Shown piece after piece: positions 8,919 through 32,953 of a DNA stretch of 64,000 bases. The notes under the pieces were generated by a model. The model was not told the DNA's origin. It searched no databases and saw only the letters and a list, made by a program, of their open reading frames with translations. This stretch comes from Aphanocapsa lilacina HA4352-LM1 (lineage in GTDB: Bacteria; Cyanobacteriota; Cyanobacteriia; Gloeobacterales; Gloeobacteraceae), in assembly GCA_019359725.1 (NCBI GenBank), contig JAHHGR010000008.1, positions 1-64,000 of the forward strand. Reading direction: 5' to 3'. The position numbers and the translations under genes are program-made. Every line of letters begins with the position of its first letter. Within the stretch, counting starts at the first letter, position 1.

Positions 8919-8982
8919 CCCGAAACGGCCGGTGCATCGAACAGAGTTAGGTATTGATAATTACTGTATTGCCACACATCCC

Positions 8983-9642
8983 ATGGAAATTCTCACACGC
9001 AAATCCGAGTCGCGCGGCTTTGCTCCCTCGCCGGCGAACAAGCGCCTTCTCGATACGTTGGCGGCCCTGGTGGGCCTGGTGTTGCTGGCGCCCGTGTTTG
9101 CCTGCATCGCCATGGCCATTCGTCTCGATTCGCCCGGTCCGGTGTTTTTTCGCCAGGGGCGTCGAGGTCTCGGTGGCCGGACTTTTCGCGTCTGGAAATT
9201 CCGGACGATGGTCATTGACGCGGAGGCCCAACTGGGTCGCTTGGAGCAGTTCAACGAATCGGAAGGCGGGGTGCTTTTCAAGATGAAAGCGGACCCGCGC
9301 GTCACCCGTCTGGGGCAGTTCCTGCGGCGCACCAGCCTCGACGAGTTGCCGCAACTGCTCAATGTGCTGGCAGGCGAGATGAGCCTGGTGGGACCGCGAC
9401 CGCTGCAGGAGCGCGACTGCCGCAGAGCCGGCGCCGGTTTTGACAGCGAGCGCCTCGCTTTGCGCCAATCGGTCCGGCCGGGCATCACCGGCTTGTGGCA
9501 GGTGCGCGGCCGCAGTGAGCTGAGCTTTGAGCAGATGTTGCAACTGGATCTCGAATATATCGACAACTGGTGCCTCAGCCAGGATCTGGCGATTCTCTGG
9601 CAAACCGTCGTCGTGGTGCTGGCTAAAAAAGGCGCCTACTAG
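8983..9642 (+). CDS. Undecaprenyl-phosphate sugar-1-phosphate transferase (ExoY-like)
   Basis: A 219-residue priming enzyme that would load the first sugar phosphate onto undecaprenyl phosphate at the inner membrane. It has one N-terminal hydrophobic helix at about 19-44, followed by the bacterial sugar-transferase domain with PVFFRQGRRG, FRTM, the acidic RTSLDELPQL segment and SLVGPRP, then RPGITGLWQVRGR. Length fits the short ExoY class and not the five-helix WcaJ class. The ATG at 8983 is preferred since the longer open frame begins inside the transposase remnant. It opens the exopolysaccharide pathway in this locus. Confidence 0.9.
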   Translation: MEILTRKSESRGFAPSPANKRLLDTLAALVGLVLLAPVFACIAMAIRLDSPGPVFFRQGRRGLGGRTFRVWKFRTMVIDAEAQLGRLEQFNESEGGVLFKMKADPRVTRLGQFLRRTSLDELPQLLNVLAGEMSLVGPRPLQERDCRRAGAGFDSERLALRQSVRPGITGLWQVRGRSELSFEQMLQLDLEYIDNWCLSQDLAILWQTVVVVLAKKGAY

Positions 9643-11570: not shown

Positions 11571-12629
11571 ATGACGATATTTAGGCAAGCGCGCTTTCCG
11601 GCGGCCCATCGGCCACCTTCCAGTAGCGGCGAACCGCTGGTCAGCGTGCTCATCTGCAATTACAACTACGGCCGCTTCGTCGGTGAAGCGATCGGCAGTG
11701 TCCTGGAGCAGACCTATCGCAATATCGAACTCATCGTGGTAGACGATGGTTCCACCGACGACTCCCGCCAAGTCATCGGTGCGTACAGCGACAGGCTGAG
11801 GGCCATCTTTCAGCAAAACGGCGGCCAGGGCGCAGCCTTCAACAGCGGGCTGGCCGAGGCCCGCGGCGAGATTGTCTGTTTTTTGGACGCGGACGATTAC
11901 TTTCACCGCGAAAAAGTGGCCCGGGTCGTGCGGGCTTTTGCCGAGCACCCCGAATGGGTGCAGCTGGCCCACAACTGGATATCCGTCGACATCGACGGCC
12001 GGCCGATGGGCCGCAACCCGGTGCGGCGCTTCACCCGCGGCGATATCCGCACGCTGTTGTTGCGCTGGGGCCGCTACGGTTGGGGGATCACCTCCGGCCT
12101 GAGCTACCGGCGCGTGGTGCTCGAACGGGTGCTGCCCATTCCCAAGCGTCCGCGCGCTGCAGATACCTATCTGACGGCGACGGTGCCTTTTTATGGCCAG
12201 GTGGGCGGGATCGCCGACCAGCTGATGTACTACCGGGTGCACGGCAAGAACCGGCGCGCCCGCAGCGACAACCTGCCCTACTTACTCCAGCAGCGCGAGG
12301 ACACCTGCGTCTGCATCAACACCGCCGCCCGCGACTCGGGGCTGGCGGAGCGCTTCGACATCCGCTGCGACGGAGATTATCGGGGCTTCAAGGCCCTCGA
12401 AAGCGGCGGCGGCTCCTGGGGCGATGCCTTCGGAATTTGCTGGTTGTCGCTGCGAGAATTTGTCGCACTGCGGCGCAAGCCGGCCGAAGCACTCGTCAGA
12501 CTCGCCCAGCGCCTCGGTTGTGTGCTGTTGCCGCCCGAGCAGGCCCGGGCGCTGTTGCGCCTCGGGTTGCAGGGCTATGTGCGCTCGCGGCTATTCGGTG
12601 CGCAGGCGCCTTCAGGAAAAAGCTCCTGA
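11571..12629 (+). CDS. Glycosyltransferase family 2
   Basis: A 352-residue GT-A fold enzyme. The N-terminal nucleotide-binding region reads VSVLICNYNYG at about 24-34, VVDDGSTD follows near 60, and the metal-binding DADDYF motif is near 106. The C-terminal half is variable, as expected for acceptor specificity. No transmembrane helix is evident, so it should act at the cytoplasmic face of the membrane on lipid-linked intermediates. It follows ugd by 30 bases. The donor sugar is unknown. Confidence 0.9.
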   Translation: MTIFRQARFPAAHRPPSSSGEPLVSVLICNYNYGRFVGEAIGSVLEQTYRNIELIVVDDGSTDDSRQVIGAYSDRLRAIFQQNGGQGAAFNSGLAEARGEIVCFLDADDYFHREKVARVVRAFAEHPEWVQLAHNWISVDIDGRPMGRNPVRRFTRGDIRTLLLRWGRYGWGITSGLSYRRVVLERVLPIPKRPRAADTYLTATVPFYGQVGGIADQLMYYRVHGKNRRARSDNLPYLLQQREDTCVCINTAARDSGLAERFDIRCDGDYRGFKALESGGGSWGDAFGICWLSLREFVALRRKPAEALVRLAQRLGCVLLPPEQARALLRLGLQGYVRSRLFGAQAPSGKSS

Positions 12630-12683: not shown

Positions 12684-13655
12684 ATGGTCAAACGCTTTGC
12701 TGCCGCTCTGCTCGCCGGTGTGCTGGGCGGCGCCTGCCTGGCTCCCGGAGCCGTCGCAAGCACCCTCAGCGCCTTCGACCGCATCTCGGTGATCGTCACC
12801 AACGGCGAAGAATTCAGTTCCCAAAGAGGTGGTCGGGCCGATGAAGGCTACCTGGTCGGCGCGGACGGCAACATCTTTATTTATCGGCTGGGCAGCATCC
12901 CGGCCGCCGGCCGTGAGGAGGCCGAACTGCAGCAGGAGATCACCGAGCGCCTGCGCGAGTACTTTAAGGTGCCCGAGGTTACCGTGCGTTTGATCGGCGT
13001 GAGCCCGATCAACGTCGACGTGGCGGGGGCCGTCTACCGGCCGGGGCTGATCACCGTCAAGGCCAACGGCGACACCCCGAGCGGCGCGTCCTCGCGGACG
13101 GTCTTCAACGCCATCCAGAGCGCCGGCGGTGTGCGGCCGGACGCGGATCTGTCGCGCATTCGCCTGGAGCGCTCGGGCCAGTCGCTGGTCTTAGCTCCCG
13201 GGCAGGACACCCCGGTGATCTCCGGCGACCGCATCGTCATCGAGCGGCTCGCCGCCGGGCAGGTGCCGATCTACCACGTCTCCACCCAGCTGACCCCGGC
13301 GGAGATCACGGTCTACGTCTCCGGTACCGATGCGCGCGAAAATCAGGGGCCGGTGAAGGTCAAGCCCGGCACGACCCTATCGGGGGCTTTAACCGCCGCC
13401 GGCATCTCGGGAGAGTCTTACCTGCGCGAGGGCCGCAAAGTGGCGCTCATTCGCCGCGACCCGGTCGAAGGCAAGCGCGAAGTGACGTCCTACGAATTCG
13501 CCAAAGTGATCGGCGGCGAGAGCGACCCACCGCTGTGGGACGGCGACGCCATCGCGATCACCGCCGGTCCTGCCCAGAACACCATGGGCTTTTTGGATAT
13601 GCTCAGTCCCCTGCTCAATCCTTTGGGATTCATGCTTCGCGCCTTTATCCGCTGA
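12684..13655 (+). CDS. Polysaccharide export protein (Wza-like, SLBB domains)
   Basis: A 323-residue secreted protein with a signal peptide (VKRFAAALLAGVLGGACLA). The polysaccharide biosynthesis/export domain spans about 30-120 (VGADGNIFIYRLGSIPAAG and EYFKVPEVTVRLIG), followed by SLBB-type beta-grasp segments at about 120-200 and 210-290. The C-terminus ends in an amphipathic segment resembling the region that forms the Wza outer-membrane helix. A Cys sits at the end of the signal region, so lipidation is possible. Length is near Wza. It precedes the Wzc-like kinase by 13 bases. Confidence 0.9.
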   Translation: MVKRFAAALLAGVLGGACLAPGAVASTLSAFDRISVIVTNGEEFSSQRGGRADEGYLVGADGNIFIYRLGSIPAAGREEAELQQEITERLREYFKVPEVTVRLIGVSPINVDVAGAVYRPGLITVKANGDTPSGASSRTVFNAIQSAGGVRPDADLSRIRLERSGQSLVLAPGQDTPVISGDRIVIERLAAGQVPIYHVSTQLTPAEITVYVSGTDARENQGPVKVKPGTTLSGALTAAGISGESYLREGRKVALIRRDPVEGKREVTSYEFAKVIGGESDPPLWDGDAIAITAGPAQNTMGFLDMLSPLLNPLGFMLRAFIR

Positions 13656-13668
13656 CGGAGAAACAACT

Positions 13669-15720
13669 ATGCACGTAATTCAGGTTCTCAAGCGGCACTG
13701 GCGGCCGTTGCTGGTGCTCAACGGCCTGGTGCTGGCAGCCACGATCGGGGTGGCCTGCTACTACCCGCGCACCTGGACGGCCACCACCCAGATCATTCTC
13801 CCCAGCACCAACAAAAACGCCGAGATCAGTCTGGGGGAGCTAGGCGAAGTGCGCGAGACCGGCACGTCGTTTTCGAGTGAAGTGAACGCCCTCAAGGTGC
13901 AATCGGCGATTCTGACCAGCAGCGAAGTACTCTCCAAAGCCTGGCAAAAGGATCCGCAGCGCGAGAAGTACCCCGACTTGGGGGGCTATGAGAAGTTGTT
14001 CAAGGCCGTTCCCCAAAGCCAGACGACGATCCTGGCGGTGGAAGCCAAAGGCAATGCGCCCGAGGTTGCCGAGGCGCGGGCGGACCTGCTGGTACGCTCC
14101 TACGTGGCCCGGCTGGAGGAGTTGCGCGATGCCTACGCAGCTTCGCGCGACACACTGTCGCAAAAAGAACTCGATCGCGCCCGCCGCGAACTGACCAAGG
14201 CGGAAGCTGCCCTGGCCCGCTTCAAGCGTTCGACCGGACTGGTCAATACCGATCAGCAGACCGGCGGGTTGGTGGCGGTAATCAGTTCTCTGACCACCAG
14301 CCAAGCCCAGGCCGTCGCCGAGGGCACCGCCGATCAGGCGCGCGCCCAGATGCTCACCGCCCGCCTGGGCATGGATGCCCCCCAGGCGATGCGCGCCCTG
14401 CGCCTGGGCGAAAGCAAAGAGTACCAGGCGATGCGCCTGAAACTCAGCTCCCTCGATACGGCCCTGGCGGAGGCCAGGGGGCTCTACACCGAAAAACACG
14501 CCCGGGTGCAGTCGCTGCTGGTGCAGCGCGCGGAACTGCAACGCTCGCTGCGCGAGCTGTTGGCGAAGGTCGTTCCGGCAAGCCGCACCGAGCCTGCCCT
14601 GGACGATTCGCTCGCCGGCGGCGGCAACCGCGACAGCCGCATCGACTTAATTTTGTCGCTGCTTGAAGCCGAGCGCGCCGCCGAGGCCCGCTCACGCCAG
14701 AGCGCCCAGTTGGGCCGCACCATCGATCAAGCCACCGAGCGGCTGAGCGCGATCTCGACCCGCCAGGCGACCTTGCTGGATCTGCAGCGGCGCTACGAAC
14801 TGGCGGAGGCGGCCTACAAAGCGGTCGTCGCCCAGATGCAGCAGGCCCGCCTGAGCGCCTTCAACGCCTTCCCGGATATCGAAGTGCTCGATAAAGCCTA
14901 CTCCAACCCGAAAGAAGCCAACCCGAGGACGCTGCTTATCGCCCTGGGCGGGCTGGTCGCCGCCGCCTTCGGCAGCCTGGGACTGATCTTGCGCAAAGAA
15001 GCGATCAATCCGCTCCTGGGCCCCAAAGATTTACAAAGTGTCGAATTGCCGGTGCTTGCGCGCCTGCCCCGCACCAAGGGCTTGTTGCCGTCGGGCGATC
15101 CGCCCCGGCTCGAATCGCAGCAGCTTGCCTCCACCGTCAGCCTGATGGATCTGCCCAATCGCCGATTGATGATCACCAGTTCCACCGCCGGCGAAGGCAA
15201 GACGACCCTCACCCTCGGGCTGGCAAATGCCCTGCGGGAGATGGGTTTTCGGGTATTGCTGGTCGATGCCGATTTCCGCCAGGCGAGCCTCAGCCGCCTG
15301 CTGGGCCATGGTCCCCAGGCGGAAGGTGCCCGGGCGGAGCCTGTTTCGGTCACGACCGATCTCGATCTGGTCCCGGCGCTCGCCCTCGAGGACACCTCGA
15401 CCGCCTTTTTCGTGCAGGGTGGTTTTGAACGCCACCTCGACGATGTGCAGACCGACGGCTACGACTATGTGCTGGTGGATAGCCCGCCCATCAGCCTGAC
15501 CAGTGAAGCGGCCTTGATGATCCCGGCGGTGCGCAATGTGTTGTTTGTCGTCCGCCCCGGGGTGAGCGGCCGCGACGCGGTGAGTGAGAGCCTCGATCGC
15601 CTCGTCCGCCACAATGCTCGTCTGGTGGGGCTGGTGGTCAACGACGTGACGACCCGCCAGGAGGGCTACCGCTACAGTTACGGGCGCTATGGGCGGCAGA
15701 GCATCGAGGTGGTCACATGA
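13669..15720 (+). CDS. Wzc-like chain-length regulator and bacterial tyrosine kinase
   Basis: A 683-residue inner-membrane protein. An N-terminal Wzz domain has a first transmembrane helix at about 15-35, a long periplasmic coiled coil, and a second helix at about 420-440. The cytoplasmic BY-kinase domain has Walker A TAGEGKTT, Walker A' LLVDADFR and Walker B VLVDSPP. The C-terminus carries the tyrosine cluster YRYSYGRYG whose phosphorylation cycle controls polymerisation in Wzc and CapB proteins. The stop codon overlaps the start of the polymerase gene (ATGA), so synthesis is coupled. Confidence 0.93.
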   Translation: MHVIQVLKRHWRPLLVLNGLVLAATIGVACYYPRTWTATTQIILPSTNKNAEISLGELGEVRETGTSFSSEVNALKVQSAILTSSEVLSKAWQKDPQREKYPDLGGYEKLFKAVPQSQTTILAVEAKGNAPEVAEARADLLVRSYVARLEELRDAYAASRDTLSQKELDRARRELTKAEAALARFKRSTGLVNTDQQTGGLVAVISSLTTSQAQAVAEGTADQARAQMLTARLGMDAPQAMRALRLGESKEYQAMRLKLSSLDTALAEARGLYTEKHARVQSLLVQRAELQRSLRELLAKVVPASRTEPALDDSLAGGGNRDSRIDLILSLLEAERAAEARSRQSAQLGRTIDQATERLSAISTRQATLLDLQRRYELAEAAYKAVVAQMQQARLSAFNAFPDIEVLDKAYSNPKEANPRTLLIALGGLVAAAFGSLGLILRKEAINPLLGPKDLQSVELPVLARLPRTKGLLPSGDPPRLESQQLASTVSLMDLPNRRLMITSSTAGEGKTTLTLGLANALREMGFRVLLVDADFRQASLSRLLGHGPQAEGARAEPVSVTTDLDLVPALALEDTSTAFFVQGGFERHLDDVQTDGYDYVLVDSPPISLTSEAALMIPAVRNVLFVVRPGVSGRDAVSESLDRLVRHNARLVGLVVNDVTTRQEGYRYSYGRYGRQSIEVVT

Positions 15721-17075
15721 ATCAGGCCCTCTCCACCGCCATCCGCCGCCGGCCCTGGCAGGAGATCAAACTGCCGGGTCTGGGGCTCAGCTGGTCGATG
15801 CTCTCCGCCGCCGAGCGGCTGGTGATGCTCTATATCGCCCTGCTGCCGGCCTGGTGGGTGAGCGGTCTGTACCGCTATATGCCCGCATTGACCCTGGCGG
15901 GGGTGCTGTATTTCACCATTCGCCGGGAGGGCCGCTGGCCCTTTGGGCGTCCGAGTCTGGCGGTGGTGGCCCTGCTGGCCTTCGCCGGTTATCAGTTGCT
16001 CTTTCCCGCCCTGGGCGGCACCCTCGCGCCTGGTTTCGTCCTGCAGACGGTACTGTTTTATGTGATGCCGGCTCTGCTGCTCTGGTGCGTCCAGGGCAGT
16101 GGGGTCAAAGTCCGCTTCCCGGTTGCCGCCTGGGCACTTTCGGTGAGCGTCCTGCAGATGGTCTTGATCTGGTTGGTCTTTCACTTTGGGCTGGGGGAGC
16201 CCAGCTTCGCCCCGCCGCGCACGCTGCTTGCCACCCTTAACGACAAACCCACCGACTACGACTTTCACGACTACGGCGAGGGCAGCGGCAAGGCGAACTA
16301 CCTGTACCTCTACAGCGCCGGGGACCGGGCCTTCGCCGGGTTGACCCGCTACATGTTCTTCTTTTTGACCCCGGAAATTTTTGGTCTGGTGGCGGGGTAC
16401 CTGGTGCTGGTCGCCCTGGATCTGAAAAATCGCCTCTGGTCGCTGGCGCTTTTGGGCGGCAGCCTGTTTTTGCTGCTGCTCAGCGGATCGCGGGCGGTGC
16501 TGCTCGCGATGCCGCTGGTGCTGCTGGTGCGCTACGCGGTTTCCCTGGGCAAAGAGCGCGGTCCGGCACTTTTGTGCATACTGGCAGCGGCACTGGGCTT
16601 CACCTGCCTGGCGGTGCCGCCGGTGACCAATTTTCTGGTCGACACGACCGTCGGCACCGTCGAAGCGGCCAACGACTTTCGGGCCGGTTCGACCCGCGTG
16701 CGCATGCTGATCTACGAGCGCACCCTCGATCGCATCCCCGAGCAGCTGTGGACCGGCCATACCGAGCCGGGCGAGCCGGTGTTTTCCTCCTTCAGCCTGG
16801 GCCGGGTGGGCAGCCACAGTTTTATCCTGGGCAATTTGCTTTACCGCTCCGGGGTACTGGGTACAGCCCTGTTTGTCCTCTTCTGGTCGGCGCTGTGCTG
16901 GTGGTTTTTTCGCACCCGCCGGGGACGACCGCTTTCCAGCCACGCGCTGTTGTTGCTGCTGGTATTGCTCTCGCCGCTGATGGTCTTCGGCTCCGAGCTG
17001 GTGGGCATGCTCATTTTGCTTGCGGCTACGGTTCACACACCTTCCACTTCCCCAGGAGGGACCCGCCGTGGATAA
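15717..17075 (+). CDS. O-antigen ligase/polymerase-like membrane protein (Wzy)
   Basis: A 452-residue protein with about ten to twelve transmembrane helices and a large periplasmic loop at about 300-380 (SFSLGRVGSHSF), the layout of Wzy polymerases and O-antigen ligases. SGSRAVLLAMP at about 260-270 fits the family. It would polymerise the flipped repeat unit on the periplasmic side. The gene overlaps both neighbours: ATGA with the kinase upstream and eight bases with the glycosyltransferase downstream. Sequence in this family is poorly conserved, so ligase versus polymerase is inferred from the locus. Confidence 0.83.
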   Translation: MNQALSTAIRRRPWQEIKLPGLGLSWSMLSAAERLVMLYIALLPAWWVSGLYRYMPALTLAGVLYFTIRREGRWPFGRPSLAVVALLAFAGYQLLFPALGGTLAPGFVLQTVLFYVMPALLLWCVQGSGVKVRFPVAAWALSVSVLQMVLIWLVFHFGLGEPSFAPPRTLLATLNDKPTDYDFHDYGEGSGKANYLYLYSAGDRAFAGLTRYMFFFLTPEIFGLVAGYLVLVALDLKNRLWSLALLGGSLFLLLLSGSRAVLLAMPLVLLVRYAVSLGKERGPALLCILAAALGFTCLAVPPVTNFLVDTTVGTVEAANDFRAGSTRVRMLIYERTLDRIPEQLWTGHTEPGEPVFSSFSLGRVGSHSFILGNLLYRSGVLGTALFVLFWSALCWWFFRTRRGRPLSSHALLLLLVLLSPLMVFGSELVGMLILLAATVHTPSTSPGGTRRG

Positions 17076-18270
17076 ACCCTCGGCCCTACCACGCAAATTG
17101 TTGATCCTGCCTGGTTATTGCGATTCGCTCGGCGGCACGATGGTGACGCTGGAGGCAATCTTGACGGGATTTCGAGCGGTCCGCGCCGAAGGACGGCTGT
17201 GTGTGCTGGTCCGCGCCGGCTCGTTTATGGAGCAGTACCTTCGAGACCGGGGTCACACCTGTATAGTCGCCCTGCCCTCGGCGGACCAACCGCGCTTCTG
17301 GCTTGACGCCCTTGGGTGGGCGATGGCCCAGCCCAGCGATCACCCGCTGCTGTTGGAGCACTGGGTGGATCGGCGCATGCTGCCCTTGCTCGCCTCGGTG
17401 GCGTTGCGCCTGCGCTTGAGCGGCAGGCTGGTGCTGCACTCCTGCCACGACCTGGCCCTTTCTTTTCAGCCGTTGGGTTTCTGGGCGCGCCGGCTGACCT
17501 TCGCGCTGCTTGCCCCCCGGGTGATCTGCAATTCGCTCTATACCGCCAAACACGTGCGGGTGCTCATGCCCCGGATCGAAGGAATTTTGCACCCACCCAT
17601 CGACACCGAGCGCTTCAGCTGCCGGCCTGTCCCGGTTGTACCACCGGAACTACTGCCTATCCTCCGCCCAGGGGTGCGGTTGATGCTTACCCCTTCGCGC
17701 ATCAGCTCCGCAAGCCGGATGAACGACAAGAACCTGCGCGCCCTGCCGCGGGTGCTGGCAAGCCTCAAAGCCGCCGACCGGCACTACCACGGGGTGGTGG
17801 TCGGCGACGATTTGTCCCCCGGTAGGGTGCAGACGCAACTGCTCATCGAGCAGGCCGCCCACGAGGGGGTGGGCGATCGCTTTACGGTGCTGCCGCGTAC
17901 CACCGCCATCGAGCGGTACTTCCAGTGCGCCGATGTCGTGGTCACCCTCGCCCCGCGCGAACCGTTCGGGCGGACGGTGGCGGAGGCGGTGGCCTGCGGG
18001 GTGCCCGTCGTGGGCAGCAACAGCGGCGGTATCCAGGAAATCCTTCACCACTTCGCCCCCGAGTGGACGGCGGATCCCGGCGATCCGGTGCAGGTCGCCC
18101 GGACCATTCTCACCGTGGCGAGCGACCCCGCCACCCCCGAGCGGCTGGCCCGGGGTCGGCGATGGGTAGAACAAAACTGCAGCGCCGTCCACTACGCCCG
18201 CCGTCTGTTGGCCCTTACGAATCTGGCCACCGGCGAGGACCGTCCCGTCCCGGCGGTCACCCGCCGCTGA
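17068..18270 (+). CDS. Glycosyltransferase family 4
   Basis: A 400-residue GT-B fold enzyme. The GTG at 17068 is chosen because AGGAGGG lies eight bases upstream; a longer frame begins inside the polymerase gene. The C-terminal donor-binding domain has the GT4 E-x7-E pattern in EPFGRTVAEAVACG followed by PVVGSNSGGIQEI. The N-terminal acceptor domain begins LLILPGYCDSLGGT. Donor and linkage unknown. Translation is probably coupled to the polymerase gene. Confidence 0.88.
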   Translation: MDKPSALPRKLLILPGYCDSLGGTMVTLEAILTGFRAVRAEGRLCVLVRAGSFMEQYLRDRGHTCIVALPSADQPRFWLDALGWAMAQPSDHPLLLEHWVDRRMLPLLASVALRLRLSGRLVLHSCHDLALSFQPLGFWARRLTFALLAPRVICNSLYTAKHVRVLMPRIEGILHPPIDTERFSCRPVPVVPPELLPILRPGVRLMLTPSRISSASRMNDKNLRALPRVLASLKAADRHYHGVVVGDDLSPGRVQTQLLIEQAAHEGVGDRFTVLPRTTAIERYFQCADVVVTLAPREPFGRTVAEAVACGVPVVGSNSGGIQEILHHFAPEWTADPGDPVQVARTILTVASDPATPERLARGRRWVEQNCSAVHYARRLLALTNLATGEDRPVPAVTRR

Positions 18271-18293: not shown

Positions 18294-19430
18294 ATGCTGA
18301 CCAAAACCCAGTCCAGGCTCCGCGAAGTGGGTATTTACCGCCGGGTCTACCCACTCGCCTCCGAAGCGTTCATCACCGAACAGGCCGGCAGCCTGGTGCG
18401 CTACCGGCCGACGTTCATTCTGTGCACGCAGCTGGCAAACGCCGCCTTCCCGAGCGTCGCCCTCAGCCGGCGCGACCGGTGGGGGCTGCGCCAGGCGCTG
18501 TTTTTGCTCACCCGCTCGCCGCATTTATTTGAAGGCCGCGATTTTGGACGATTGGATCTGCTGCACGCCCACTTCGGACCGGACGGCATCTACAGCCTGC
18601 CTCTGGCCGAGCAACTGGCCATTCCGCTCCTGGTCACCTTTCACGGCTACGACATTACCGTGGAGCGCAACTGGCTGGCCTTCCGCAGCCCGCTGTTCTA
18701 TCAGCTGATGCTGCACGAGCAGGAATTGCAGCGCAAGGCGGCGGGCTTCATCGCCGTCTCCCGCTTTATCCGCGAGAAGCTGATAGCGGGCGGCTACCCG
18801 GCGCAGCGCGTCGTCCAGCACTACATCGGGGTGGACACCGCCAAATTTGCCCCCGGCTGCGGGCGGCCCACCGAGCGCTATATCCTCTGCGTCGGACGGC
18901 ACACCGAGAAAAAGGGCCTCGACACGTTGCTTGCCGCCTTCGCCCGCATCGCCCATCGCCACCCCAATGTCTCGCTGGTGCAGGTGGGTACCGGTGCCCT
19001 CACCCGCCAGTTGCACGCGCAAAGTGCCGCCCTCGGGCTCGCGGGACGGGTGCGTTTTTTAGGAGCCTTGCCCCACGCCGAAATCTTGCGCTGGATGCGC
19101 GGGGCGGAGATCTTTGCCCTGCCCAGCCAGACCGCCCGCGACGGCGACAGCGAAGCGCTCGGCATCGTCTTCAACGAGGCGGCGGCCTGTGCCGTACCGG
19201 TGGTCGCCACCCGCCACGGCGGCATCCCCGAAGCGGTCCTGGACGGCCAGACCGGATTTTTGGTCCCCGAGCGCGACAGCGCAGCACTTGCCGATCGGCT
19301 CGAAACCCTGTTGGCCGACCGCGTCCTGGCCCGGACGATGGGGCGCCGTGCCCGCGAGTTCGCCTGCGAGATGTTCGATATTCGCAAACAGGCCAAAAAG
19401 CTGGAACTCATCTACGACAGCCTGAAGTAG
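18294..19430 (+). CDS. Glycosyltransferase family 4 (WcaL/AmsK-like)
   Basis: A 378-residue GT-B enzyme beginning at the ATG at 18294, 23 bases after the preceding stop. The N-terminal domain has YPLASEAFITEQ and LLHAHFGPDG, typical of colanic-acid WcaL and amylovoran AmsK enzymes. The donor domain has ALGIVFNEAAACAVPVVAT and HGGIPEAV. These relatives transfer galactose or similar sugars to lipid-linked intermediates, but the donor here is not established. It sits between another GT4 and the split glucuronosyltransferase genes. Confidence 0.9.
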   Translation: MLTKTQSRLREVGIYRRVYPLASEAFITEQAGSLVRYRPTFILCTQLANAAFPSVALSRRDRWGLRQALFLLTRSPHLFEGRDFGRLDLLHAHFGPDGIYSLPLAEQLAIPLLVTFHGYDITVERNWLAFRSPLFYQLMLHEQELQRKAAGFIAVSRFIREKLIAGGYPAQRVVQHYIGVDTAKFAPGCGRPTERYILCVGRHTEKKGLDTLLAAFARIAHRHPNVSLVQVGTGALTRQLHAQSAALGLAGRVRFLGALPHAEILRWMRGAEIFALPSQTARDGDSEALGIVFNEAAACAVPVVATRHGGIPEAVLDGQTGFLVPERDSAALADRLETLLADRVLARTMGRRAREFACEMFDIRKQAKKLELIYDSLK

Positions 19431-19479: not shown

Positions 19480-19929
19480 GTGAAGATACTGCTGGTCTGC
19501 AATCCGGGTGGGCATTTTGCGACGATGCAGTCGTTGCGCAAGTTCTGGTCGGCCCACCAACGCGAGTGGGTCACCTACGAGCGCTTCGATACCCTGCAGT
19601 TGCGGGACAAAGAACAGGTGCACTGGGTGATCAAGCAGGAGGCTCGCGAAGTCTGGCGGGCCTTCGCCAATTTTGGCAAGGCTCTGGCCATCCTGCGCCG
19701 GAGTCGGCCGGAGCTGATCGTCTCCACCGGCGCCGGTCTGGCGGTGCCCTTCGTGTTGGCGGGCAAGCTGCTTGGGATCAAGAGCGTCTTTATCGAGAGC
19801 ATTTCCCGCGCGGAGGATCTGAGCATGAGCGGCAAACTCATCTACAACCTCGTCGATGAATTGTACGTGCAGTGGCCCGAGTGCACCGTGCGCTACCCGC
19901 GCGCCCGCTACATGGGGGTCGCCCTATGA
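19480..19929 (+). CDS. Alg14/PssD-like glycosyltransferase subunit
   Basis: A 149-residue protein with the acceptor-domain features of Alg14 and PssD: an N-terminal LLVCNPGGHFATM carrying the GGH motif, a STGAGLAVPFVLAGKLLG membrane-associated segment near 85-105, and an FIESISR segment. In rhizobia PssD and PssE together form a glucuronosyltransferase. A GTG start with GAGGAGG upstream is used. The stop overlaps the next start (ATGA), as expected for two halves of one enzyme made together. UDP-glucuronate from ugd is the likely donor by analogy. Confidence 0.88.
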   Translation: MKILLVCNPGGHFATMQSLRKFWSAHQREWVTYERFDTLQLRDKEQVHWVIKQEAREVWRAFANFGKALAILRRSRPELIVSTGAGLAVPFVLAGKLLGIKSVFIESISRAEDLSMSGKLIYNLVDELYVQWPECTVRYPRARYMGVAL

Positions 19930-20402
19930 TTCTGGTGACGCTGGGGACGCAGTTTTTTCCGTTCGATCGCTCGGTGCGCTGGATCGATGAACTGTTGGCG
20001 CAAGGGGTGATCGACGAACCGGTCCTGCTGCAGCACGGAGAGACCACCCCCACTCGGTCTATGCATCCGCTGGTGACGGCGGTCTATTCGCTCGAAATCG
20101 GCGAGATGCAGGAGGCGGTGCGCCGTTCTTCGCTGGTGGTCTCCCACGCCGGGCAAGGTTCCGCCCGCATGCTGGCCCGCCTCGGGGCGCGCTTTGTCCT
20201 GCTGCCGCGGCTGAAGCGCCACGGCGAGCACATCGACGATCACCAGTTGCACTTTGCCCAGGCCGTCGCCCGCCTCGGTGTGCCCCACTGCACCAGCCGC
20301 ACCGAACTGGCGCGCTATATCCTGCAGCCGCCCGCCCCCTTCGAAGGCGAATTGTTCAAAGCCCCTTCGCTGGCCGACCACCTGGTGGTGCGCTTCGGCT
20401 AG
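19926..20402 (+). CDS. Alg13/PssE-like glycosyltransferase catalytic subunit
   Basis: A 158-residue C-terminal GT-B half. It opens MILVTLGTQFFPF, carries VVSHAGQGS for nucleotide-sugar binding at about 77-85, and KRHGEHIDDHQ near 105, all typical of Alg13, PssE and the C-domain of MurG. It works with the overlapping Alg14-like gene. By analogy with rhizobial PssDE it would add glucuronate to the growing lipid-linked repeat unit. The start at 19926 is fixed by the four-base overlap. Confidence 0.88.
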   Translation: MILVTLGTQFFPFDRSVRWIDELLAQGVIDEPVLLQHGETTPTRSMHPLVTAVYSLEIGEMQEAVRRSSLVVSHAGQGSARMLARLGARFVLLPRLKRHGEHIDDHQLHFAQAVARLGVPHCTSRTELARYILQPPAPFEGELFKAPSLADHLVVRFG

Positions 20403-20476: not shown

Positions 20477-21535
20477 ATGAACCCGCTCTCGCGCGTCCTG
20501 CCTTTTCTGCCGCCCGAATTTGCCGAAGCGATCCACTGGCTAGGCTGGGCTACCGATCATTTTTTCCCCCTCAAGATGGCGGCGCTGCTGGCCCTGCCGC
20601 TGGCGATCGCCGGCGCGATCCTGGCGCTGCAGGTGCACGTCGCCCGCACGCACAGCTGGCCAAAAATTTGGGCCGACCTGCGCCAGGCTCACCAACTGAC
20701 GCCCTCGTTTCGGGTCGAATTGGGGCTGATGGCTCTGGGGATGGTGGGCATCGTGGGCTGGGCCACCGCCCTGGGCGATCAGGGCCGCCGGGTCACCCAG
20801 GGCGCGGTCGCCCAGTTTCTGCATCAGTTCTACCCGGAGCAGTGGACCCTGGCCGCTTTGGGTCACCGCTCCTTTGGGGGCACTTTGCTGGCGCTGGTGT
20901 TCTACATCGCGCTGTTCGATCTGATTTTGTATGCCTCCCACCGCATCAAGCACAGCCGGCTGCTCTGGGACCTCCACAAGATCCACCACTCGCCGACGTC
21001 GTTCAATCTGGTCTTTGCCGTCTACAACCGGGATCGATCGATTATCCCCACCTACGCGCTGCTCGATTGGATTCCCTTTGCCCTGCTGTTGCCTTTGGGC
21101 ACGCCGGTGGGGGAGGCGACGATCTATTTCGCCATCTACAAAGTCCTCGACAAAGCGCGCAATATCTGGATCCACATGCCCTTTTACACCAGCTTCGGCT
21201 GGCTCGATTACCTGTTCGTTTCTCCCGCGGTGCACCAGTGCCACCACGGCGCCGACACGATTTATCACGGCAAGAATTTCGGATCGCTGCTCTCGGTGTG
21301 GGATGTGCTCTTTGGCACCTACGCCAAACCGCCGGCCGAGCCCCCGGCGCTTGGCATCGGCGAAGACGGCGAGCGGTTGCACCGCAACCTGTTCGCCTTT
21401 TTGTGGCTGCCAATCCACGATCTGGGCCGCACCTGGGTCCGCATGGCCGGATCGCTATTGCCCACACGGCGTCACCCGCCGAAAACGGCAGCCCCGGTGC
21501 CGCCTGTCCCCTCGAAGGAGCCTTCCCTCAAATGA
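20477..21535 (+). CDS. Fatty acid hydroxylase/sterol desaturase family membrane protein
   Basis: A 352-residue integral membrane protein with about four or five transmembrane helices. The di-iron histidine motifs are visible in order: HRIKH near 155, HKIHH near 167 and HQCHH near 255. The family uses O2 to hydroxylate or desaturate lipid chains, sterols or carotenoids. Its stop overlaps the start of the flippase gene (ATGA), and the gene sits amid glycosyltransferases, so it probably acts on a lipid linked to this polysaccharide or on the polymer. The substrate cannot be told from sequence. Confidence 0.85.
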   Translation: MNPLSRVLPFLPPEFAEAIHWLGWATDHFFPLKMAALLALPLAIAGAILALQVHVARTHSWPKIWADLRQAHQLTPSFRVELGLMALGMVGIVGWATALGDQGRRVTQGAVAQFLHQFYPEQWTLAALGHRSFGGTLLALVFYIALFDLILYASHRIKHSRLLWDLHKIHHSPTSFNLVFAVYNRDRSIIPTYALLDWIPFALLLPLGTPVGEATIYFAIYKVLDKARNIWIHMPFYTSFGWLDYLFVSPAVHQCHHGADTIYHGKNFGSLLSVWDVLFGTYAKPPAEPPALGIGEDGERLHRNLFAFLWLPIHDLGRTWVRMAGSLLPTRRHPPKTAAPVPPVPSKEPSLK

Positions 21536-23001
21536 ACTTGCGCCAGAAAGCCGTCAAAGGTGTGGGTTGGTCCGCCATCCGCAACCTGGGCAGCCAGGGT
21601 ATTTCGCTGGGTGTCTACTTTGTGCTGGCCCGCCTGCTGGGCCCGGAAGCCTTTGGCCTGGTCGCCCTCGCAGCCATCTTCGTCTCCTTTGTCCAGATTT
21701 TCCTGGAACAGGGCCTGCCCCAGGCGATCGTCCAGAGGTCGCAGCTCGAAAAAGCCCATCTGGACACGGCCTTCTGGGCCAACCTGGCGGTGGGGACGCT
21801 GCTGACCGCACTGTGCTTCGCCAGCAGCGGTCCGGTGGCAAACTTTTTCCACGAGCCGCGGGTGGGTCCGGTGGTCTGCTGGCTCTCGTTCAGCCTGTTC
21901 ATCGGCTCGTTCAACGCTGTGCAGCAGGGCATTCTGACGCGCGAATTCGCCTTCAAGTCCCTGGCCGTTCGCTCCTTGATCGCCACTGCCGTCGGCGGGA
22001 TCGTCGGCATCGCCATGGCACTGAGCGGCTGCGGTGTCTGGAGCCTGGTGGGACAGCAACTGGTCAGCCAATTGATCGGGGTGGTGACTCTGTGGCAGGT
22101 GAGTTCGTGGCGGCCGGGTTTTGCCGTCTCGCTCAGGCACCTCGGCGAACTGCTCAGCTTTGGGGTCAACGTGACGGCGTTCAACTTGTCCAACTTCTTC
22201 AACCGGCGCGCCGACAGTTTTTTGATCGGCTACTTTCTCGGTCCGGTGGCCCTGGGCTACTACACCATTGCCTATAACATTCTGCTGGCGATGACCCAGC
22301 TTTTGACGGCGACCACCACCCAGGTGGCCCTACCGACGTTCTCACGGCTGCAGCACGCGCCGGAGCGACTCCTCTCGGCCTTTTACACCGTTACGCAGTT
22401 TACCAGTCTCATCTCGTTTCCGGCCTTTCTGGGGGTTGCCGTTCTCGCCCCCGAACTGGTCGCGGTCTTGTTCGGCGAGCAATGGACCGCCAGCGTGCCG
22501 GTGATGCAAGTACTCTCGTTGGTCGGCATCCAGCAGTCGGTGTTCTTCTTCAACGGTACGGTGCTTATGGCGATGGGCAAGCCGTCCTGGCGGCTGTGGC
22601 TCAACGTGCTCAACTCCATCGTCGGGGTGGTCACTTTTGCCATCGCCGTGCCCTGGGGGATCGTGGCGGTGGCCGCCGCCTACGTCGTCAGGGTCTACTT
22701 GCTCTCGCCGGTGGCCCTCTGGGCGGTCAACCGGTTGATGCCCATCGATCTGGGCAAGTACCTGCGCCAGTTCGCCCCGGCCCTGGTCAGTTCGCTGGGA
22801 GTGGTCTGCACCATCTGGGCCGTCCGGGTGGTGTTTGGGAGCGTGCTTTCGCCGCTGGCGCTGCTCACCCTGGCCAGTGTCGTCGGGGCGGCGGTCTACG
22901 CCCTCGCCCTGCGGCTGAGCGCGCCGGAGCTGTTCGCGCGCGCCCTCGATTATGCGCGCCTGTTGGTGCCGCTCGGTGCGGGCAGCCGGGCGCCGTCTTA
23001 A
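21532..23001 (+). CDS. Wzx-like oligosaccharide flippase
   Basis: A 489-residue membrane protein of the MOP superfamily (polysaccharide transport family). It has about 12-14 transmembrane helices, opens with MNLRQKAVKGVGWSAIRNLG, and has FNRRADSFLIGYFLG in the middle, a typical signature of Wzx and LpsE-type lipopolysaccharide exporters. It would flip the undecaprenyl-linked repeat unit to the periplasm for the Wzy-like polymerase. It overlaps the hydroxylase gene by four bases, so translation is coupled. Confidence 0.92.
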   Translation: MNLRQKAVKGVGWSAIRNLGSQGISLGVYFVLARLLGPEAFGLVALAAIFVSFVQIFLEQGLPQAIVQRSQLEKAHLDTAFWANLAVGTLLTALCFASSGPVANFFHEPRVGPVVCWLSFSLFIGSFNAVQQGILTREFAFKSLAVRSLIATAVGGIVGIAMALSGCGVWSLVGQQLVSQLIGVVTLWQVSSWRPGFAVSLRHLGELLSFGVNVTAFNLSNFFNRRADSFLIGYFLGPVALGYYTIAYNILLAMTQLLTATTTQVALPTFSRLQHAPERLLSAFYTVTQFTSLISFPAFLGVAVLAPELVAVLFGEQWTASVPVMQVLSLVGIQQSVFFFNGTVLMAMGKPSWRLWLNVLNSIVGVVTFAIAVPWGIVAVAAAYVVRVYLLSPVALWAVNRLMPIDLGKYLRQFAPALVSSLGVVCTIWAVRVVFGSVLSPLALLTLASVVGAAVYALALRLSAPELFARALDYARLLVPLGAGSRAPS

Positions 23002-23028: not shown

Positions 23029-23868
23029 ATGATCGCCGTTACTGCCTTCGACACCAGCCAACTTTCGACGTTCCGAACCCACCACCACTTCGAGCGCTAC
23101 GGTGAATTCAAAAGCGCCGAAGAATTCGCCGAGTACTGCCGTTGGGCGGACGAACACAGCGCCCGGGTTTATATTCTGGGCAACGGCTCCAATACCCTGT
23201 TTGCCCGACCCTCGGTGCGCTCGCTGGTGCTCAAAAACAGCCTGCCCAGAACGATTCGATCGCTGGGCAACGGTCGGGTGGAAGTGTCCTCGACCGTGCA
23301 GATCAACGAAGTGTTGAACTATTGCTATCAGCACGCCCTCGATTCGTTTTACTACCTGGCCTCGGTGCCCGCTTCGATCGGTGGGGCGCTCGCGATGAAT
23401 GCCGGCCGGGGTAAAACCCACAACTGTACGATCTACGATTTTGTCGAAAGTGTCACTTACCTTCACGAAGGTGCGGTGAAGACCCTCTCGAACGCCGAGA
23501 TCCAACGGGGTTACCGCAGGACGATGTTCACCGGTATCCAACGCAGCTTGATCCTCAGTGCGGTTCTGCGCTTCGACGCGGCGCACTTCGAGCACAATCC
23601 GCTCACCGAAAGGCGGCAGTGGGCCAAAGAACACCAGGACAACACCCTGCCCAACTGCGGCACAGTCTTCAAGTACGCGAGCTACCCGATCATGAACCGC
23701 CTGCGCGGTCTGCGCATCGGCGATGCCTACTTTTCTGCGAAGACGAGCAACTGGATATTGAATAAATCCACCAGCAGCGCTCCGATTCTCACTTTGATCA
23801 AAGTCGCCAAAATTCTGCATTATTTGAGTTTCAAAAAAATCGACCTCGAAGTGATCGAAGTCGATTAG
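23029..23868 (+). CDS. MurB-like FAD-binding reductase paralogue
   Basis: A 279-residue protein with the fold order of UDP-N-acetylenolpyruvoylglucosamine reductase. FAD-binding features are GNGSN at 51-55 and SVPASIGGALAMNAG at about 112-126. YRRTMF at 162-167 matches the MurB YR-S-F segment with the active-site Arg. NCGTVF at 209-214 replaces the usual AGS/C-F, so the proton-donating Ser is Thr212. SAKTSNWILNK at 236-246 matches the domain 3 motif, and a C-terminal Glu remains. It is probably a paralogue acting on the exopolysaccharide, since it lies between the flippase and a pyruvyl transferase. GGAG precedes the ATG; an in-frame TTG is six bases upstream. Confidence 0.82.
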   Translation: MIAVTAFDTSQLSTFRTHHHFERYGEFKSAEEFAEYCRWADEHSARVYILGNGSNTLFARPSVRSLVLKNSLPRTIRSLGNGRVEVSSTVQINEVLNYCYQHALDSFYYLASVPASIGGALAMNAGRGKTHNCTIYDFVESVTYLHEGAVKTLSNAEIQRGYRRTMFTGIQRSLILSAVLRFDAAHFEHNPLTERRQWAKEHQDNTLPNCGTVFKYASYPIMNRLRGLRIGDAYFSAKTSNWILNKSTSSAPILTLIKVAKILHYLSFKKIDLEVIEVD

Positions 23869-23904
23869 CGGTTGTTTTGGATTCTTTTCGAGCGAGCACA
23901 CAGC

Positions 23905-25011
23905 ATGAAAATCGGTATTGTCACGTTCCACCACACCACCAACTACGGCGCCACTCTGCAGACTTACGCGCTGTGGAAGACCCTGAGCTGCCAGGGACAT
24001 GCAGTCGAAATCATCGACTATCAACCGACCGCAGCGGTCAAGTACTACCTCAAAGAGTTTTTGCCCGGCCGGCCGGTGCTCAGCAACCTGCAAAAGGCCT
24101 GGAAGATGAGCGCCTTCTTGCGCTCACAGATGCGCCTGGGTGCGAAGACCTGCTACACGCGCGAACAGTTGAAGCGTCACCACGGGCAGTACGATGCGGT
24201 GATCTGCGGCAGCGATCAAATCTGGTGCATCGACGCCTTTCGTGGGTACGATCCGTCGTTCTTTCTCGACTTTGTCGATGCGCGCACGACGCGCAAAATC
24301 AGCTACGCGGCGAGCGCCGGCTATACCCGGACGCTCGGGGAGCGTCAGGGGGCTGTGCGCGATTTGTTGGGGGATTTCTGGGCGCTTTCGGTGCGCGACG
24401 CCAATACCGCCGGCCTCGTCGAGCGCGAATGCGGGCTCACCTCGACCCACGTGCTCGATCCGACTTTTCTGGTCGATTATGGCGAGTTCCTCGCGCAGCC
24501 GGCGGCGGGCAATTATCTGCTTATCTACAAGATGGGTCCGATGTCGCGGCCCGAAGAGCACTCGATTCTGGCCCTGGCAAAGGCGCGGGGACTGGAAATT
24601 GTCTCGATAGGCTTTGAGCACCGCATCGCCGACCAGAATCTGATCGGGGCCGGCCCGGTGGAGTGGATCAACGGTTTTGCCGGTGCCCGGTACGTCTTCA
24701 CCGACACCTTCCACGGCACGATCTTCTCGATTATCTTCCGCAAACCTTTCTACACCTTTATTTCCAAGAACAAGGCGGCCAAGATCGGCGACTTGCTGCA
24801 CAACCTCGGCCTCGCCGAGCGGATGATCGATGCCCAATCCGAACCGGTGGTCGACTTTGGAGATCTCGATTACACCGCCGTCAACCCGCAGCTCGAAGAG
24901 CGTATCGCCGGGTCGAAAGCTTTTTTGCGGCAGGCTCTGACCAGCACCAGACCTCTTTTGCTCCCGCGCACCCACCCGGCCGAAGCGCTCTACCGGCCGG
25001 CACTGGGCTAA
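23905..25011 (+). CDS. Polysaccharide pyruvyl transferase family protein
   Basis: A 368-residue GT-B-like enzyme of the CsaB/WcaK family. The N-terminus MKIGIVTFHHTTNYGATLQTYALW is the usual family opening, followed by CGSDQIWC and the C-terminal FTDTFHGTIFS motif with conserved His. Family members add ketal pyruvate from phosphoenolpyruvate to sugars in capsules and S-layer-anchoring polymers. It follows the MurB-like gene by 36 bases. The ATG at 23905 is preferred to an upstream alternative because the family sequence starts there. Confidence 0.9.
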   Translation: MKIGIVTFHHTTNYGATLQTYALWKTLSCQGHAVEIIDYQPTAAVKYYLKEFLPGRPVLSNLQKAWKMSAFLRSQMRLGAKTCYTREQLKRHHGQYDAVICGSDQIWCIDAFRGYDPSFFLDFVDARTTRKISYAASAGYTRTLGERQGAVRDLLGDFWALSVRDANTAGLVERECGLTSTHVLDPTFLVDYGEFLAQPAAGNYLLIYKMGPMSRPEEHSILALAKARGLEIVSIGFEHRIADQNLIGAGPVEWINGFAGARYVFTDTFHGTIFSIIFRKPFYTFISKNKAAKIGDLLHNLGLAERMIDAQSEPVVDFGDLDYTAVNPQLEERIAGSKAFLRQALTSTRPLLLPRTHPAEALYRPALG

Positions 25012-29999: not shown

Positions 30000-30020
30000 G
30001 TCGCCACGTGGGCTATACCG

Positions 30021-31308: not shown

Positions 31309-32292
31309 ATGAAAGCATTCGTGCTCGCCGCCGGCAAGGGTACGCGCCTGCGCCCCTTCACCGACGCCCTGCCCAAGCCGCTGATGCCCGTGATGAACAA
31401 GCCCGTCATGGCCCACATCCTGGGACTGTGCCGCAAACACGGCCTCGACGAGGTCGTTGCAAACCTGCACTACAAAGGCGAAAAGATCAGCGAGTACTTC
31501 GGCAACGGCTCCCAGTACCAGGTGTCGCTGGGCTACTCCCGCGAGGAGCAACTGTTGGGCACCGCGGGCGGTGTGCGCCGCCAGGCGGACTTTTTGGCCG
31601 GCGGCCCTTTTTTGGTCATCTCCGGCGACGTGATGACCGATCTGGATCTGACTGCCCTGCTGCAGTTCCACAAACAATCCGGCGCCGTCGCCACCATGGC
31701 CGTCAAAGAAGTCGGAGACCCGAGCCGCTTCGGGGTTGTGGTGAGCGACAGCCACGGCAAAGTTGAAAGTTTTCAAGAAAAACCCACCCGGGGCACCGAG
31801 CGCTCGCGGTGGGCCAACACCGGCATCTATGTGCTGGAGCCTGAGGTGTTCAATTACATCCCCGAGGCGACCTTCTTCGACTTCGGCAACGACTTGTTTC
31901 CGATGCTGGTGGCCAAGGGAGCACCGGTCTTTGCGATGCGCACGGGAGCCTACTGGTCGGATGTCGGTACCCTGGCGCAGTACCTGTACACGCATTGGGA
32001 ATTGTTGACCCATCCCGAGATTGTCCAGCGCATCGGCGAAGGGACGGTCGTAGAACCGGGGGCGGTGATCTCCGAACAGGCGCTCATCGGCCGCCACTGC
32101 ACCATCGAAAAAGGGGCGCGGGTGCTGGGCTACAGCTGCGTGAGCGACGAGTGCGTGATTCGTGCCGGCTCGGTCGTGGTCGACAGTGTGATGTGGACGA
32201 GTGAGCAGCTGGGCGAGCGGCTCAGCGGCGACCTGGTGCGCTCGATCTGGGGCGACGGCAAGCACGTCTGCCTCGGCATCCCCAACCTCTAG
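31309..32292 (+). CDS. Sugar-phosphate nucleotidyltransferase
   Basis: A 327-residue enzyme that makes an NDP-sugar from NTP and a sugar 1-phosphate. The N-terminal signature is LAAGKGTRLRPFTDALPKPLMPV, with GTAGGVR near 82 and the metal-binding FLVISGDV near 100. A left-handed beta-helix-like C-terminus at about 245-310 fits the mannose-1-phosphate guanylyltransferase or glucose-1-phosphate transferase group. The base and sugar specificity are not clear. GGAGGAAACC precedes the ATG. It probably feeds the exopolysaccharide pathway. Confidence 0.9.
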   Translation: MKAFVLAAGKGTRLRPFTDALPKPLMPVMNKPVMAHILGLCRKHGLDEVVANLHYKGEKISEYFGNGSQYQVSLGYSREEQLLGTAGGVRRQADFLAGGPFLVISGDVMTDLDLTALLQFHKQSGAVATMAVKEVGDPSRFGVVVSDSHGKVESFQEKPTRGTERSRWANTGIYVLEPEVFNYIPEATFFDFGNDLFPMLVAKGAPVFAMRTGAYWSDVGTLAQYLYTHWELLTHPEIVQRIGEGTVVEPGAVISEQALIGRHCTIEKGARVLGYSCVSDECVIRAGSVVVDSVMWTSEQLGERLSGDLVRSIWGDGKHVCLGIPNL

Positions 32293-32371: not shown

Positions 32372-32953
32372 ATGCACAAAGGGGAAAGTCGGGTGCAACG
32401 CATCGAAACCGCGCTTCCGGGCGTCTATGTGATTGAACCGAAGGTCTTCGGCGACGCCCGGGGTTTTTTTTATGAGTCCTACCACCGGGCCAAATTCACC
32501 GAGTTGGGGATCGCGGACGAGTTTGTGCAGGACAATTGCTCGCGCTCGGCGCGGGGCGTCCTGCGCGGCCTCCATTACCAGCTGCGTTTCCCCCAGGCCA
32601 AACTTTGCCGGGTCGTGGAGGGCGAAGTCTTCGATGTGGCCGTCGATATCCGCAAAGGTTCACCCACCTTCGGCCAGTGGGCGGGTGTGGTCCTCTCCGC
32701 CGAAAATAAGTGCCAGATCTATGTTCCGGCCGGTTTTGCCCACGGCTTCGCGGTGCTCTCGGAATCGGCGGAATTTCTTTACAAATGCAGCGATTTCTAT
32801 CATCCCGAGGATGAGCAGGGAGTGCTCTGGAACGATCCGGACGTCGGCATTCCCTGGCCAGTGGAGGCCCCCATTCTCTCGGGCAAGGATCAGAAATACT
32901 TGCCGCTCAACCAGACGGACCCGGAGCGGCTGCCGGTGTACCACCAGAAATAA
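32372..32953 (+). CDS. rfbC: dTDP-4-dehydrorhamnose 3,5-epimerase
   Basis: A 193-residue cupin epimerase of the dTDP-L-rhamnose pathway. It has TALPGVYVIEPKVFGDARGFFYE at the start of the fold and RGVLRGLHYQ with the catalytic His. An alternative GTG start at 32393, preceded by GGGGAAAG, would give 186 residues, closer to the usual length, and may be the true start. The other rml genes are not in the window. It ends the + strand run of the exopolysaccharide locus and is convergent with psaD. Confidence 0.92.
   Translation: MHKGESRVQRIETALPGVYVIEPKVFGDARGFFYESYHRAKFTELGIADEFVQDNCSRSARGVLRGLHYQLRFPQAKLCRVVEGEVFDVAVDIRKGSPTFGQWAGVVLSAENKCQIYVPAGFAHGFAVLSESAEFLYKCSDFYHPEDEQGVLWNDPDVGIPWPVEAPILSGKDQKYLPLNQTDPERLPVYHQK

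Follow-up and report, generated by a model that had tools for sequence, protein, structure and literature searches.

The locus described here raises the question of what a relative of the murein enzyme MurB does next to a polysaccharide pyruvyl transferase in a set of exopolysaccharide genes. The two ORFs, referred to as MurB-L and PST, are located in the window, by which we mean the whole 64,000-nucleotide stretch of Aphanocapsa lilacina HA4352-LM1 that was analyzed. We consider it likely that they form a dedicated two-step module for the synthesis of a lactyl (1-carboxyethyl) ether on a sugar of a surface polysaccharide. That diverse microbes keep a MurB relative together with a sugar pyruvyl transferase among their slime-polymer genes points to a second route, hardly studied so far, by which surface sugars are decorated with lactic acid.

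The exopolysaccharide genes form a same-strand run from the priming sugar transferase gene (position 8824) to the gene of an RmlC-type epimerase (position 32372) (Table 1). Within this run, MurB-L and PST lie directly 3' of the flippase gene, on the same strand and 36 bp apart, with ugd and the PssD/PssE genes upstream on that strand. A reading of the DNA made from the sequence alone had placed a MurB paralogue beside a pyruvyl transferase, downstream of ugd and PssDE-like genes, and the ORFs agree with this coordinate for coordinate. The PssD protein scored above its NCBIfam cut-off (146.4 versus 110 bits), and PssE scored below (61.4 versus 120 bits). The PssD/PssE pair is linked to glucuronosyl transfer, and the NCBIfam name PssD/Cps14F leaves the sugar open. 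The PssE-like ORF, as called from position 19872, overlaps PssD, and its true start may lie further downstream. Both MurB-L and PST are under purifying selection, with NG86 dN/dS ratios of 0.11 for MurB-L and 0.13 to 0.17 for PST when the window was compared with loci L036 and L037.

Table 1. Features of the exopolysaccharide gene run in the window
Feature	Position	Strand	Profile or remark
Priming sugar transferase	8824..9642	+	PF02397 Bac_transf
ugd, UDP-glucose/GDP-mannose dehydrogenase family	10152..11540	+	
Family 2 glycosyltransferase	11571..12629	+	PF00535
Wza-like export protein	12684..13655	+	PF02563
Wzc-like chain-length/ATPase protein	13669..15720	+	
O-antigen ligase/polymerase family	15717..17075	+	PF04932
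GT4 glycosyltransferase	17020..18270	+	
GT4 glycosyltransferase	18294..19430	+	
PssD-type glycosyltransferase subunit, Alg14-like	19480..19929	+	NCBIfam PssD, over cut-off
PssE-like glycosyltransferase subunit	19872..20402	+	PF04101; NCBIfam PssE under cut-off
Fatty-acid-hydroxylase family protein, between PssE and flippase	20477..21535	+	PF04116
Wzx-type flippase	21532..23001	+	PF13440, PF01943
MurB-like FAD reductase (MurB-L), 279 aa	23029..23868	+	ATG start; stop at 23868
PF04230 polysaccharide pyruvyl transferase (PST), MurB-L partner, 368 aa	23905..25011	+	ATG start; stop at 25011
Sugar-1-phosphate nucleotidyltransferase	31309..32292	+	PF00483
RmlC-type epimerase	32372..32953	+	PF00908

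MurB-L and the murein MurB of the same genome

MurB-L matched PF01565 with an E value of 9e-13, and its match to MurB_C (PF02873) reached 21.8 bits, below the 27-bit cut-off. It also scored below the cut-offs of two NCBIfam murB equivalog models (120.2 versus 259 bits and 81.8 versus 144.5 bits). The AlphaFold model (pLDDT 89.3) has the full MurB fold, including the C-terminal MurB domain, and its best match was 3tx1 (TM score of 0.83 over the query). The top 18 rows of the Foldseek search were MurB structures (17 by title, and 1mbb, titled 'oxidoreductase'); an S229A mutant structure was present among the matches, and DprE1 and cholesterol oxidase appeared in lower rows.

Residues R163, T212, and E274 of MurB-L align with R159, S229, and E325 of E. 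coli MurB, which we take to be catalytic. When 14 MurB-L rows were aligned with 34 comparison MurBs, the Arg and the Glu were kept in every row of both sets, and the proton-donor position held Ser (11/14) or Thr (3/14) in MurB-L and Ser (27/34) or Cys (7/34) in the comparison MurBs. The sequence-only reading had pointed to a replacement of Ser by Thr at this site, which is correct for the window protein but is not a family trait; as a diagnostic mark of MurB-L it was rejected, being local to Gloeobacter-type rows. The two sets are separated by the Pro after FxN and the His of SxKHxNF, found in 34/34 comparison MurBs and 0/14 MurB-L rows, and one loop is shorter in MurB-L. The pocket His is not a universal mark, because E. 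coli MurB, which is outside the 34, carries Gln there; a five-residue check of the Natrinema, Cetobacterium, and Paracoccus relatives described below gave Gly, Thr, and Gln at this position. A changed pocket together with kept chemistry is what would be expected for a reductase acting on another enolpyruvyl ether.

The source genome contains three matches to MurB-L, namely, MurB-L itself, a 74% identical copy on contig 85 that also adjoins a PST, and a 30% match on contig 14. The gene on contig 14 lies directly after murC, with an overlap of a few bases, and passes both NCBIfam murB cut-offs (307.7 versus 259 bits and 248.7 versus 144.5 bits). Since a murC-linked murB on another contig passes the curated cut-offs and the 74% copy of MurB-L is PST linked, MurB-L is not the murein MurB but a MurB-fold accessory protein. 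The sequence-only reading was to be given up if MurB-L were the only MurB of the genome, which it is not. Among 59 related genomes, the source genome included, all had a murB-type match, whereas MurB-L at 53% identity or more was found in 6, and all 6 Gloeobacter-side genomes also had a separate murB. In the genomes of loci L042 to L055, a second, weak murB-type match was present in 14 of 14 cases, although it is partial in one (G067).

Association of MurB-L with one PST subfamily

PST matched PF04230 with 111.6 bits (gathering cut-off, 25.3). The CsaB equivalog model TIGR03609 gave no match to the window PST, and a Nostoc PST partner obtained 26.2 bits against the cut-off of 213.1. The PST structure model retrieved only GT-B-like folds with TM scores of about 0.4, with no pyruvyl transferase among the 50 matches listed, and a search by sequence for a solved PST relative returned none that was credible. 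Across 15 genomes, PF04230 was matched 36 times, and loci were assigned to 30 of the matches. Thirteen of the 30 fall into the partner subfamily (at least 370 bits), 12 of which adjoin MurB-L, whereas none of the remaining 17 (at most 11.5 bits) does so. PST shares with the ketal pyruvyltransferases CsaB and Pvg1p that it reaches the PF04230 family cut-off, but its subfamily separates from the CsaB-type copies in the same genomes. The subfamily also occurs alone, as in a Nostoc PST (L169, 375.7 bits) without MurB-L within 1.5 kb, and 1 of the 18 Nostoc-genus genomes with the pair has an extra, divergent PST (44% identity) with no MurB-L nearby.

A PST of this one subfamily adjoins 36 of 38 close MurB-L loci, defined by at least 395 bits on a profile built partly from those loci, versus 0 of 99 other murB-type loci, and the pairing therefore exceeds chance. 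The link between a MurB-like protein and a pyruvyl transferase, as claimed from the window, is thus real and is conserved in many lineages. The 38 close loci comprise 8 Gloeobacter-side loci, 18 of the Nostoc genus, L044, L050 to L055, L150, and L199 to L202, with G894 treated as the same genome as G208 because of identical coordinates. The 99 others are L003, L012 to L035, L056 to L121, L125 to L131, and L153, of which L125, L126, and L127 represent almost the same region, while L012 to L035 have at most about 1.5 kb per side. PST neighbors among the 99 were sought with the partner-subfamily profile, which detects divergent partners (at least 88.5 bits) but not CsaB-type proteins. Both exceptions among the 38 lie at contig ends: the contig of L050 ends 211 bp past MurB-L, and L041 has 588 bp without PST between MurB-L and the contig end, while a PF04230 fragment ends another contig of that genome. 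Loci L197 and L198 score above one of the murB equivalog cut-offs, which counts against the reading as a dedicated module.

The hosts of close MurB-L loci are Gloeobacter-side bacteria, Nostocaceae, other cyanobacteria, one Peribacteraceae bacterium, and one planctomycete. MurB-L precedes PST in the window, L004, L036 to L039, L051, and L053, whereas PST comes first in L040, Nostoc, L052, L054, L055, L199 to L202, and the archaeal and fusobacterial loci. In the Nostoc genus (that of Nostoc desertorum, as delimited by the search tool), MurB-L (E value of 1e-40) and PST were found in the same 18 of 53 genomes, and the other 35 had neither. MurB-L was present in 25 of 217 genomes of the family, 18 of these 25 being Nostoc, in 2 of 386 genomes of the phylum sample (source genome counted), and in 2 of 392 of the planctomycete phylum sample. 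Among 369 gammaproteobacteria there was no clear MurB-L; a single match (E value of 1e-38, 134.5 bits) had no PST neighbor and was counted as ordinary. The search of phage records gave 20 matches, all below 60% identity.

Five divergent relatives of MurB-L are also PST linked. Two are in G944 (Nostocaceae) and G1368 (a planctomycete), and three were found by tblastn searches of plasmids from Natrinema, Cetobacterium, and Paracoccus; of 22 plasmid matches, 10 were examined, of which 3 were PST linked, 2 MurA linked, and 5 neither. In the plasmid of Natrinema, a haloarchaeon, the PST and MurB-like genes overlap by 17 bp and lie beside genes for a flippase and a UDP-glucose dehydrogenase. The Cetobacterium plasmid has the same pair, with a UDP-sugar dehydrogenase in the locus, and in Paracoccus a single chain of 845 aa contains PF04230 (residues 50 to 257) and both MurB domains (residues 559 to 679 and 724 to 820). 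In a 58-row tree, which is unrooted and has long branches, 20 of 21 PST-linked MurBs fell on one side of a branch with support of 100/100. Without constraint, the tree placed the Paracoccus fusion with ordinary MurBs, and a single clade of all 21 was not rejected (AU P value of 0.28). The two MurA-linked cases, on plasmids of Agrobacterium MA01 and Haematobacter, each combine paralogues of murB and murA with a sugar dehydrogenase gene in a locus for exopolysaccharide; these MurBs group with ordinary MurBs, pass the TIGR00179 cut-off, and retain the pocket His.

Lactyl ethers in published polymers

Excerpts of PMC4616057 give 46 Klebsiella types from which pyruvate is absent, 4 of which (K8, K22, K37, and K66) have pyruvyltransferase genes. 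In the table of PMC6856556, O-lactyl groups are listed for three types only, K22, K37 (GlcA), and K66 (Glc), and K8 is listed with pyruvate. On the basis of these partial sources, a pyruvyltransferase gene occurs in 3/3 lactyl types versus 1/43 of the other non-ketal types, with a probability of 4/15180. The cps clusters of K22 and K37 are described as near-identical, differing by an acetyltransferase gene; since they thus share one cps, there are two loci, and 3/990 is the fairer figure. Ketal-free Klebsiella types with a pyruvyltransferase gene are accordingly tied to lactyl-ether capsules, in a comparison that consists of pyruvyltransferase genes and sugar tables as excerpted.

Lactyl ethers of this kind also occur outside Klebsiella. 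An excerpt of PMC5983295 describes a polymer of Vibrio alginolyticus (strain CNCM I-5034) with lactate on O-3 of glucuronic acid and the same residue in Nostoc commune DRH-1. The sequence-only reading had named nosturonic acid, the 3-O-lactyl glucuronic acid of N. commune, and support for this Nostoc link is partial and at the level of the genus: the pair is present in a third of the Nostoc-genus genomes, which would be compatible with nosturonic acid as a product. A 2006 title, cited in PMC5643014, concerns Shigella boydii type 17 and a pair of genes for its glucolactilic acid. This system, compared by title only, resembles the present one in that two genes are proposed for a lactyl ether of a hexose, and because a route to a lactyl sugar through two genes has been published before, the gene families need to be compared. 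In the open-licence literature, as far as accessible in part and with most subscription papers outside it, we found no report that ties a MurB-like protein to a PF04230 protein or to lactyl ethers of polysaccharides.

In muramic acid, the ether is (R) and located at O-3. The lactyl ether of K22, which is (S) at O-4 according to a cited title, differs from this in configuration and position, and its reductase may therefore differ as well.

Proposed route and competing explanations

In the module that we favor, PST would attach phosphoenolpyruvate to one sugar hydroxyl, probably on the lipid-linked repeat unit, to form an enolpyruvyl ether rather than the cyclic pyruvate ketal made by other PF04230 enzymes. 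The flavoprotein MurB-L, judging from its kept catalytic set, would then reduce this enolpyruvyl ether to the lactyl ether, and the finished unit would be moved out by the flippase and the products of the export genes. Enolpyruvyl transfer followed by reduction is what the sequence-only reading had proposed, and such chemistry would fit both the conserved catalytic residues and, by analogy, the Klebsiella comparison. The two-step logic parallels that of MurA and MurB, in which an enolpyruvyl ether derived from phosphoenolpyruvate is reduced by a flavoenzyme to a lactyl ether, and MurB-L shares the MurB fold and the catalytic Arg, Ser (Thr), and Glu. The differences are that the window transferase is a PF04230 protein, whereas MurA has the EPSP-synthase fold, and that MurB-L is below the murB equivalog cut-offs and lacks the pocket positions of all 34 compared MurBs. 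The murA and murB paralogue pairs of Agrobacterium MA01 and Haematobacter are alike in that a non-murein MurB paralogue accompanies a sugar dehydrogenase and a transferase of enolpyruvyl groups, but use a MurA-like transferase and MurBs that pass the TIGR00179 cut-off.

A broader proposal, for and against which we see the balance as even, is that both prokaryotic domains have a second way of making lactyl ethers, one independent of MurA, in which PF04230 proteins stop at the enolpyruvyl ether and a MurB-derived reductase family traps it as the lactyl ether. If this holds, nosturonic acid, synthesized independently of murein, would correspond to muramic acid on the glucuronate side, and lactyl-ether sugars would also be produced by haloarchaea, which are not known to contain murein. 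The module itself, if confirmed, would provide candidate genes for the lactyl-ether sugars of surface polymers, making these predictable from genomes; among such polymers would be the one linked to desiccation in Nostoc and, possibly, the capsules of Klebsiella and Vibrio. It would also mean that the chemistry of MurB was redeployed beyond murein, archaea included, and that the annotation 'pyruvyl transferase' (PF04230) does not always stand for a pyruvate ketal. Because MurB-L and PST occur together, the question can be addressed directly with the two proteins in purified form.

As to the acceptor, glucuronic acid is favored in the window because of the upstream ugd and PssDE genes, in which case the product would be a lactyl-glucuronate like nosturonic acid, a narrower claim that we consider less likely than not. 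A strong competitor, which we rate somewhat short of an even chance, is the same chemistry on another acceptor, in which a neutral hexose or another sugar carries the lactyl ether. The lactyl group of Klebsiella K66 is on glucose in the table of PMC6856556, and a ugd relative lies within the fetched stretch of only 3 of 25 loci, so that a glucuronate context finds no support as a general rule. The other partner genes of the pair differ by lineage and encode WecG-type transferases, ABC exporters, and hexapeptide or sulfotransferase proteins. Glucuronate is in turn supported by the presence of ugd and PssD/PssE in the window run and of a UDP-sugar dehydrogenase in the Natrinema and Cetobacterium loci. 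The original interpretation is thus partly supported, being right in kind and unproven in substrate.

It is unlikely that PST makes an ordinary pyruvate ketal while MurB-L carries out a different flavin-dependent reaction on the same unit of the polymer. The PF04230 enzymes of known product do make ketals, using phosphoenolpyruvate, according to excerpts of PMC10435577 and PMC6801904, and MurB is part of the broad FAD_binding_4 superfamily, to which the later Foldseek rows with DprE1 and cholesterol oxidase bear witness. Against a different flavin reaction, the catalytic set of an enolpyruvyl reductase is present in 14/14 rows, and the model covers the C-terminal MurB domain; the Klebsiella lactyl types, as far as the sources extend, combine a pyruvyltransferase gene with the absence of a ketal. 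We infer that the PST subfamily of the module halts at the enolpyruvyl ether.

We see even less room for MurA as the supplier of the enolpyruvyl group, with PST a bystander acting on another sugar. Although three of the eight named Nostoc-type loci (L042, L046, and L047) have a murA 6 to 8 kb upstream of MurB-L and PST and two plasmids carry the above murB/murA paralogue pairs, MurA was set aside as the source because no murA-like ORF is present in the window, nor is one in the other MurB-L stretches compared. Furthermore, the MurA-linked MurBs cluster with ordinary ones and retain the His, whereas the PST-linked ones do not, and PST is the neighbor retained across every lineage. Least probable by our estimate is that MurB-L is a spare murein MurB present in a polysaccharide locus by chance, as its MurB fold and catalytic residues might suggest; we rejected it as the sole or a spare murein enzyme given the separate murB above the equivalog cut-offs that MurB-L does not reach, its relative in a haloarchaeon, and its long separate branch in the tree.

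murA near the pair and on plasmids

In three Nostoc loci (L042, L046 and L047), the pair formed by the pyruvyl transferase (PST) and the MurB-like protein (MurB-L) is preceded by murA at a distance of 6 to 8 kb (table below). Two plasmid loci carry murA together with a murB paralogue, and these genes share their exopolysaccharide loci with a sugar dehydrogenase. The two plasmid-borne pairs may represent a parallel, MurA-based lactyl route. For two further plasmid loci, L126 and L127, whose records give Stenotrophomonas rhizophila and Lysinibacillus fusiformis as hosts, the gene order around a murB was identical; the same surroundings under two differently named hosts hint at a misassigned or contaminated record.

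Features at the window and comparison loci
Feature	Locus	Positions	Strand	Source or basis
Plasmid murA + murB paralogue	L128	5929-8289		Agrobacterium sp. MA01
Same	L130	4539-6882		Haematobacter massiliensis
murA upstream of pair	L042	1456-2757
Same	L046	1-870
Same	L047	546-1853
Partner-subfamily PST	L169	1459-2553		Nostoc sp. ATCC 43529; 375.7 bits
Hexapeptide-transferase domain adjoining pair	L004	8581-10125
Same	L039	11708-13189
Same	L051	9307-10020
Adjacent genes with common stretch	Window	27261-29927; 29967-31220	+	Sequence comparison, Pfam
Fatty-acid-hydroxylase family gene	Window	20477-21535	+

Neighbors of the transferase

A hexapeptide-transferase domain adjoins the pair in three loci, accompanied in two of them by a weak sulfotransferase-like part, and these neighbors possibly add a further decoration to the sugar on which the pair would act. 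No MurB-L was found within 1.5 kb of the L169 PST, which belongs to the subfamily that adjoins MurB-L (370 bits or more on its profile) and lies next to a gene whose start appears flippase-like.

Adjacent genes with a common stretch in the polysaccharide run

Downstream of PST, two adjacent genes have in common a long, near-identical part (approximately 70% identity across some 390 amino acids between the orthologue of one and the orthologue of the other), which no Pfam family covers. The product of the first gene contains three additional Big_7 domains beyond this part, and counterparts of both genes are retained in L036 and L037. The run also includes a fatty-acid-hydroxylase family gene, as does L037.
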